From contig CAILIB010000011.1 in NCBI GenBank assembly GCA_903834195.1, positions 1 through 36,427 of the forward strand: DNA of 36,427 nt, read 5' to 3'. The stretch comes from an uncultured Candidatus Berkelbacteria bacterium (lineage in GTDB: Bacteria > Patescibacteriota > UBA1384 > CAILIB01). Of the stretch, positions 25,673 to 27,098 are shown piece after piece. Numbering within the stretch: position 1 is the first letter of the stretch; each line of letters begins with the position of its first letter. Both the position numbers and the translations under genes were made by a program. The notes below the pieces were generated by a model, which did no database searches, was not told where the DNA came from, and saw only the letters and a program-made list of their open reading frames with translations.

Positions 25673-25701
25673 TTGTTTAATTGAAATAATTCTGCTAAGA
25701 T
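25673..25701 (+). promoter_or_regulatory. Promoter of the leader ORF/MFS transcription unit
   Basis: TTGTTT (25673-25678), 17-bp spacer, TGc-extended -10 TAAGAT (25696-25701), 9 nt before the leader ATG. Confidence 0.55.
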
Positions 25702-25710
25702 CAGCTAACC

Positions 25711-25830
25711 ATGAAACATATCTGGCAACCTACAACTCGTCCGATGATTGATGAAGTCGCGCTTACAGTGCTCGGCTCATATTCACGTACCAGTAGGTTT
25801 AGCCAAGGTGGTTTTACACGTCTCAGATAG
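25711..25830 (+). CDS. Putative 39-aa regulatory leader peptide upstream of the MFS transporter
   Basis: ATG 25711 to TAG 25828-25830: MKHIWQPTTRPMIDEVALTVLGSYSRTSRFSQGGFTRLR. Lies between its own promoter and an intrinsic terminator. Below the ORF track cutoff. Confidence 0.65.
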   Translation: MKHIWQPTTRPMIDEVALTVLGSYSRTSRFSQGGFTRLR

Positions 25831-25851
25831 TTCTCTTTCTTAGGTAGCAAA

Positions 25852-25885
25852 AGCGTCTTGGCCAAGCCGGCTAAGACGCTTTTTT
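25852..25885 (+). terminator. Intrinsic terminator/attenuator upstream of the MFS gene
   Basis: AGCGTCTTGGCC-aagcc-GGCTAAGACGCT followed by T6. Located after the leader ORF and about 38 nt before the MFS ATG. Confidence 0.85.
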
Positions 25886-25922
25886 AGAGTTTTACTGCGC
25901 TTTGTTCTTTGAGGATTTTGAC

Positions 25923-27098
25923 ATGAAAAAAATATGGTCGGATTCGATTACTCGTTCCTGTGTTATTACTGCTTTACTAAGTAAAGTAGGGGTAACCCTT
26001 GTCTTTGCGTTTTACGCAACATTTTTGCTACACAATGGTCTTAATCAACTAGGTGTTAGTTGGGTAAATTGCGTATTTTTCATCACTTTATTTATCTTTG
26101 AAATTCCTACGGGTGCATTAGCTGATGTAATTGGTTATAAAAAATCGATTGTCATAGCGAGTGTTATTAGCTCAATAGGTATGTTCGTGTACGCTGCTTC
26201 TCATTCGTTTAGTGGTTTTGCACTCGCCGAAGGTTTTGTTGCCTTTGGTGGCACACTCTACAGTGGAGCATTCTCGGCTTGGTTACATAACCAACTTGAG
26301 CGCGAAGGTCGAGTAAACGAGCAACGAAAGATTCTTTCATTAAGTAATATGTGCGATCAGTGTGCATGGCTGATGTGCGGCTTGTTAGGAATACTTTTAA
26401 CAAGATGGGGTGAATTTTTGCCGTTTGTTGTGGGTGGATTTTGCTATCTCATATGTGCTGTCTACACAGGCATAGCAATGAATGAGATAAAAAGTGAAAA
26501 TCAGCCACTCAAAAATGTTTTTTTGAAAGTTCGAGTTGGTATGAAATACGCTCGAACACATCAGGCAATTCGCACACTCTTTCTTGTTTCACTTGTCCAA
26601 ACAGCGGGAATCGTTGGGGTAAATACACAATGGCAGCCGCGCTTTGAGCCTTTACTGCCAAGTCAGATTTGGATTGGTGGATTAAGTGTTCTTATGCCTC
26701 TTGGTGTACTAACTGGTAATTATATTGCTCGTCACCGAGAAATACATGATTCAGGTAAGGTGATAGCGGTATCTGAATTGACGATTGGATTAGGTGTTTT
26801 AGTGGCGGGGTTTTCCCATTCACTTCCACTTATCTTAATTGCGTTCGTGGTGCACGAAGTTGGGCGTGGATTTTATAATCCCGTCAAACAAGCGTTCCTG
26901 AATCGCTGTATTACAGATAGTGAAACCCGTGCAACTGTCATTTCCTGTGAAGCGCTAAGTCGTGACATAGGAGGAATGATTGGTAATCCAATTACTGGTG
27001 CCATTGCACTCCACAGTTCAATTCCGATTACTTGGATGATTTGCGGAGTTGCTATCATTTCTGTCATTGTCGTTATTCCTGGCCGTCTCCGGTGTTAA
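25923..27098 (+). CDS. MFS transporter (putative drug efflux)
   Basis: Multi-TM protein with motif A-like GALADVIGYKKSIVIAS. ATG at 25923 preceded by GAGG, preferred over TTG 25902. Confidence 0.85.
   Translation: MKKIWSDSITRSCVITALLSKVGVTLVFAFYATFLLHNGLNQLGVSWVNCVFFITLFIFEIPTGALADVIGYKKSIVIASVISSIGMFVYAASHSFSGFALAEGFVAFGGTLYSGAFSAWLHNQLEREGRVNEQRKILSLSNMCDQCAWLMCGLLGILLTRWGEFLPFVVGGFCYLICAVYTGIAMNEIKSENQPLKNVFLKVRVGMKYARTHQAIRTLFLVSLVQTAGIVGVNTQWQPRFEPLLPSQIWIGGLSVLMPLGVLTGNYIARHREIHDSGKVIAVSELTIGLGVLVAGFSHSLPLILIAFVVHEVGRGFYNPVKQAFLNRCITDSETRATVISCEALSRDIGGMIGNPITGAIALHSSIPITWMICGVAIISVIVVIPGRLRC

Follow-up and report, generated by a model that had tools for sequence, protein, structure and literature searches.

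A candidate ribosome-read transcription attenuator upstream of an MFS exporter gene in a Candidatus Berkelbacteria contig, with related loci across Patescibacteria

How is an exporter gene expressed when an intrinsic terminator lies between it and its promoter? This question is raised by a predicted MFS gene in the window analysed here, a stretch of 36,427 nucleotides from an uncultured Candidatus Berkelbacteria bacterium. The first-pass annotation proposed that a translated leader attenuates transcription and lets polymerase read conditionally into a drug-efflux-like MFS gene of a CPR genome, and the comparative evidence for this proposal is strong. We consider a ribosome-mediated transcription attenuator the best explanation, with a probability of roughly 0.78. 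The promoter-like site, the 39-codon ORF, the GAGG and the MFS ATG were all found in the sequence where they had been placed. The terminator is present with its T6 and ends at 25885 as described, but its stem measures 15 bp from 25849 instead of 12 bp from 25852. The features are as follows.

25673..25701, + strand: promoter-like TTGTTT-N17-TAAGAT, 7/12 to consensus (sequence)
25711..25830, + strand: near-leaderless leader ORF MKHIWQPTTRPMIDEVALTVLGSYSRTSRFSQGGFTRLR, 39 codons, stop TAG (sequence and homologous leaders)
25711..25752, + strand: segment 1, anti-antiterminator, the first leader codons, partner of segment 2 (duplex −27.0 kcal/mol)
25795..25816, + strand: segment 2, antiterminator 5′ strand AGGTTTAGCCAAGGTGGTTTTA, inside the ORF (22-pair helix, covariation in 18 loci)
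25848..25869, + strand: segment 3, terminator 5′ arm and loop, partner of segment 2 or segment 4 (pairing, alignment)
25849..25885, + strand: intrinsic terminator, segments 3:4, 15 bp, T6 (sequence, folding; terminator in 48/48 loci)
25904..25914, + strand: GTTCTTT box, boxA-like, weak in the window at 8/11, overlapping the Shine-Dalgarno sequence (strong in relatives)
25911..25914, + strand: Shine-Dalgarno GAGG of the MFS gene (sequence)
25923..27098, + strand: predicted MFS exporter gene, Tet-like, 391 aa, ATG at 25923 (Pfam MFS_1, NCBIfam)

The terminator stem (AAAAGCGTCTTGGCC/GGCTAAGACGCTTTT) includes one G-U among its 15 bp and closes on the loop AAGCC, with the T6 ending at 25885. Transcription is expected to start about 2–3 nt upstream of the leader ATG, and, of 200 dinucleotide shuffles of the RNA from 25700 to 25922, 198 fold less well than the sequence itself (z −2.55). 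At 7/12 to consensus, the promoter falls under the scan threshold, and the hairpin was not picked up by a generic terminator scan, probably because the T-run forms part of the stem. Both are unimportant since the whole arrangement recurs in relatives. The encoded protein matches Pfam MFS_1 (E 7e-23) and, in NCBIfam, TetA(P) (E 1.1e-21) and Tet(40) (E 1.6e-17), its nearest curated relatives, both far under the curated cut-offs; a PDB search gave no match at 0.001. The window leader (25711) and the MFS protein (25923) share an MK(H/K)IW start, a pairing not seen in the other loci, which looks like a coincidence.

Relatives of the leader are spread across Patescibacteria (CPR), and 48 loci were compared. 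Homologous MFS genes with the same arrangement occur in the CPR class that includes Candidatus Berkelbacteria, to which locus L125 (contig JAGVEG010000111.1) belongs, and elsewhere. In L052 the MFS protein is 47% identical to that of the window and comes with the leader MKYTHWLTSMQIDNVAFKRGYLSHGRVFSQGGFRSLR, a terminator and the same start-site layout; L003/L085 are built likewise (33% identity, leader MKYYLGKKENHMSAPVRIGLFWRFPNQGGL). Many further loci were reached via MFS homology. Covariance models from 13 loci (R1) and 18 loci (R2) were also used to scan several hundred CPR genomes blind to the downstream gene, and these searches placed leaders upstream of MFS, GNAT, ABC, methyltransferase, Ocnus/PHPT-like and Pfam-less genes. 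The model that includes the window sequence retrieves it at E 8e-10; independent support comes from the other loci. Weaker model matches at L170, L173 and L174 have no leader and were discarded as false positives. An ORF and a terminator are present in all 48 loci compared. Leader ORFs were partly picked by eye around the terminator; in one gene-blind search, every match had a terminator.

Among 24 non-CPR genomes carrying MFS relatives, a search that had no positive control outside CPR gave 0 leader matches. A leader peptide had no tblastn match against plasmids (best E 8), and Rfam at the gathering threshold returned tRNAs only, leaving the leader without a family match. At L054 and L089, the leader promoter is immediately preceded by a tRNA gene or a tRNA-like 3′ end, possibly an insertion site.

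The alternative pairings 1:2, 2:3 and 3:4, as well as the conserved anatomy around them, are demonstrated by the comparison of loci. All 48 loci have the potential for pairing 2:3, between the 3′ codons of the ORF and the terminator 5′ arm. When the 3′-terminal 60 nt of the ORF were confronted with the terminator 5′ arm of the same locus or of swapped loci (n = 48), cognate duplexes averaged −23.8 kcal/mol and swapped ones −15.4 (z −14.8); such swap tests are conservative, given that common ancestry lifts non-cognate pairing. Against dinucleotide shuffles, p was at most 0.025 in 46/48 loci (0.020 in the window), the exceptions being L212 and L219. An alignment of 18 sequences (A3) contains a 2:3 helix of 22 pairs, 19 of which have changes on both sides; 89% of its cells are paired, compared with 35–51% after sliding by 1–3 columns, and the terminator helix is likewise supported. 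The antiterminator excludes the terminator and has covariation support, and an intrinsic terminator lies between promoter and gene in 48/48 loci. On average the antiterminator is the stronger of the two (−23.8 versus −18.1), with values of −21.2 and −23.3, respectively, in the window. Pairing 1:2, between the 5′-terminal 36 nt of the ORF and its 3′ end, also favours cognate over swapped partners (z −12.2, 48 loci), reaching −27.0 kcal/mol in the window. Early leader codons can therefore form an anti-antiterminator, which at equilibrium loses to 2:3 in most loci. Control pairings gave no signal or almost none (segment 1 with 3, z 0.1; segment 2 with 4, z −1.5).

The ORF runs across segments 1 and 2 in 48/48 loci, partly by selection, and the other two frames are open there in 5/96 cases. 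Leaders are 27–50 aa long. In many of the 48 loci, 6–12 nt separate the end of a −10-like hexamer from the leader ATG; an SD-like sequence precedes the leader start codon in 0/48. From this spacing, and from the lack of an SD in leaders whose target genes have one in 43/47 cases, translation of the leader probably begins at the extreme 5′ end of the RNA.

N-termini are variable except at codons 2 and 5–9. With the leaders anchored at the start codon, codon 7 is the most conserved at the amino-acid level (1.55 bits; 95% null value 0.50), and codons 6 and 9 likewise exceed the null; the residues enriched at codons 6–9 are H/R/C, Q/K, L/M and N. Codon 7 is Q, K or H in 31/47 leaders and is the least paired among codons 4–13 in the 1:2 helix. 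Its information is 0.64, 0.91 and 0.09 at codon positions 1, 2 and 3; the nearly free third position indicates a constraint on the peptide. At codon 9, Asn is written AAT in 21/21 cases and never AAC (47 leaders), which suggests a nucleotide constraint besides that on the peptide. At the C-terminus, 29 leaders have an FNQG-like motif and 6 have the other register, LTKA-like. Because this motif is read in two registers, it is the RNA, and not the peptide, that is conserved there.

To relate pairing to ribosome position, a 30-nt footprint was masked at each codon and pairing was computed, thermodynamically, in transcripts ending upstream of segment 4. With the P site at codons 1–24, pairing 2:3 stays intact, but a ribosome on the last ~12 codons disrupts it; in the window leader, it disappears at codons 27–39. 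On this model, an early stall would switch the gene on, and a ribosome that has come close to the leader end would switch it off. The informative stall zone is predicted in the early ORF, around codons 6–9, and not at the C-terminus. Without a ribosome, 2:3 is preferred at equilibrium in 42/48 loci, though 1:2 is made first, so that the untranslated state may be on rather than off in the model. It is this state that distinguishes a specific stall from a general sensor of translation failure.

We infer that the leader is coupled to translation, that the stall is early and that a drug is the signal. The proposed sequence of events is the following. RNA polymerase would start a few bases from the leader ATG, and a ribosome would load at the extreme 5′ end without an SD. 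In normal translation, it would reach the last ~12 codons, that is, segment 2, during synthesis of the terminator; with segment 2 masked, 3:4 would form and transcription would stop. A ribosome that slows down or stops early in the leader, with codons 6–10 as the likeliest region, would instead keep segment 2 free to pair with segment 3, and the resulting 22-bp antiterminator would let polymerase read into the exporter gene. If no ribosome is loaded, segments 1 and 2 would pair first, perhaps safeguarding the terminator. The best candidates for inducers would be ribosome-targeting compounds that the exporter or acetyltransferase products counter.

The downstream genes of the 48 loci bear on the possible signal. 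About 27 encode MFS proteins and a dozen encode RimJ/RimL-like GNAT acetyltransferases (L169, L171, L172, L200, L202, L203, L205, L206, L209, L211, L213 and L218), while one ABC exporter (L217) and one methyltransferase (L215) are also found. The GNATs may modify a ribosome-targeting compound. Those examined resemble spermidine N-acetyltransferases, one of them also AAC(6′) enzymes, and the best named relatives of MFS and GNAT targets are weak matches. Some targets lack a Pfam family or do not look like resistance genes: L212, L214/L221 and L216, the last an Ocnus/PHPT-like protein. The small leader-preceded proteins of L214 and L221 (~126 aa), as well as that of L212, have no Pfam family, and a 'TIVAGRAR' stretch of L214 recurs in L212, marking an uncharacterised target family. 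At L206, a gene ~80 nt past the GNAT resembles, by eye, a hibernation-promoting (HPF-type) ribosome factor.

Drug induction of the leader is plausible. Circumstantially, the list of exporters, acetyltransferases, an ABC exporter and a methyltransferase resembles genes of defence against ribosome inhibitors. In the ErmCL, ErmDL and catA86 leaders, stalling occurs at about codons 6–9, and the conserved codons of the CPR leaders sit at a chain length that many antibiotic arrests have in common, an analogy that is again circumstantial. Tentatively, and at less than even odds, we hypothesize a CPR-wide antibiotic-sensing regulon: a new leaderless family of short arrest peptides in which a drug-dependent stall at codons 7–9 ([HRC]-[QK]-[LM]-N) would open the 22-bp antiterminator before exporters, acetyltransferases and other defence genes. 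If true, these reduced and largely uncultured bacteria would sense ribosome antibiotics through one common RNA device.

The first-pass annotation had looked for the arrest at the other end of the leader, in the terminal R-L-R. Macrolides are known to arrest ribosomes at basic-x-basic motifs, and the B. subtilis tlrB leader uses a C-terminal RYR (PMC6851288), so that a macrolide-type arrest at the RLR of the window could be imagined to block the terminator as in tlrB or ermD. The comparison makes this very improbable. The RLR end is found in the window only (1/48), its closest relative (L052, the 47% relative) ends in SLR, and L213 (KHR) is the only other leader with a basic-x-basic C-terminus; no conserved R/K-x-R/K marks an arrest site. 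A model ribosome on codons 37–39 of the window abolishes 2:3 and does not prevent termination, so that, contrary to the earlier suggestion that stalling at the leader end opens the gene, a ribosome arrested at the RLR is predicted to keep it off: anywhere on codons 27–39 it removes the antiterminator and favours termination. Nor is tlrB-like masking of the terminator by an RLR-stalled ribosome expected, as the terminator begins 18 nt past the leader stop codon, beyond the expected footprint.

Three further readings were weighed against a specific early stall. An amino-acid-starvation attenuator of the trp/his type, stalling at early regulatory codons, would account for the classic 1:2/2:3/3:4 layout and for the enrichment of particular residues at codons 6–9; however, there is no run of a single residue, the enriched residue varies among loci and the targets are exporters and acetyltransferases rather than biosynthesis genes, which renders it improbable. 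Somewhat unlikely, in our judgement, is a general sensor switched on by any block in leader translation (an initiation block, energy loss, many inhibitors) without specific nascent-peptide arrest. It agrees with the persistence of 2:3 in 42/48 loci in the ribosome-free model and with the variability of N-termini outside codons 2 and 5–9, but two points speak against it: a conserved 1:2 helix (z −12.2) would be pointless if the lack of translation were meant to turn the gene on, and codon 7 is constrained at the amino-acid level. A ligand-binding riboswitch or a T-box, in which translation plays no part, is extremely improbable: the leader is structured and ends in a terminator, and its conserved GGTGG recalls part of a T-box, but it has no Rfam match and no conserved aptamer besides the mutually exclusive helices, and its ORF spans segments 1 and 2 in 48/48 loci, with other frames open in 5/96.

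The principle of the ribosome-mediated attenuator favoured here is already known. As in trp/his/ilv attenuation, there is a leader ORF, an anti-antiterminator from early codons, an antiterminator and a terminator, and the position of the ribosome decides among them. In the CPR leaders, however, segment 2 is made up of codons close to the end of the ORF, whereas in trp/his/ilv it follows the ORF; moreover, the CPR leaders are near-leaderless, without an SD or a run of regulatory codons, their targets are exporters and acetyltransferases and their hosts are CPR bacteria. The tylosin attenuator of B. subtilis tlrB (yxjB) also combines a leader peptide and a terminator before a resistance gene, with readthrough set by ribosome position: a ribosome stalled at the C-terminal RYR of its 9-aa leader masks the base of the terminator (PMC6851288). 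The CPR leaders, in contrast, have 27–50 aa and no conserved C-terminal motif, and their antiterminator is predicted to need an early ribosome. In plasmid records, the regions upstream of the tetracycline genes tet(O/32/O)-tet(40) and tetA(P) of Clostridia similarly hold a short ORF and terminator-like hairpins, and Tet(40) and TetA(P) are distantly related to the window MFS protein. As a source of the leader, the tet(O/32/O) and tetA(P) regions were rejected: by eye, they have no peptide, antiterminator sequence or GTTCTTT box in common with it.

In the open-access journal papers searched, we found no report of leader-peptide or transcription attenuators in Patescibacteria/CPR. A survey of CPR genomes describes many resistance-like genes, mostly from similarity, and its main text does not mention leaders (PMC8651080). 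As far as checked, the novelty lies in the family, its CPR hosts, the near-leaderless ORF, an antiterminator made from the ORF's own 3′ codons and its use before unrelated genes. Few regulators have been described in the small genomes of CPR bacteria, and a ribosome-read switch conserved in many of their lineages would show that exporters and acetyltransferases are regulated by the state of the ribosome. The leader would also mark which of the CPR resistance-like genes (PMC8651080) likely answer ribosome poisoning, and it gives reporters usable in laboratory bacteria without CPR culture.

Two further elements lie 3′ of the terminator. A boxA-like GTTCTTT box (GTTCTTTAACA) occurs 20–35 nt upstream of the target gene in most of the 48 loci, scoring at least 8/11 in 31/47 (2.6 expected). 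Its identity with an rrn-type boxA was considered and rejected, the best scores upstream of seven CPR 16S genes being 7–8/11, near background. The other element, just 3′ of the T-run, can base-pair with the loop of the terminator (48 loci, z −11.1). No counterpart was spotted by eye in the window; examples are found in L052, L054, L059, L089 and L090, with CTAGATACG/CGTATCTAG as the pair in L052, and the element exists only in the readthrough RNA.
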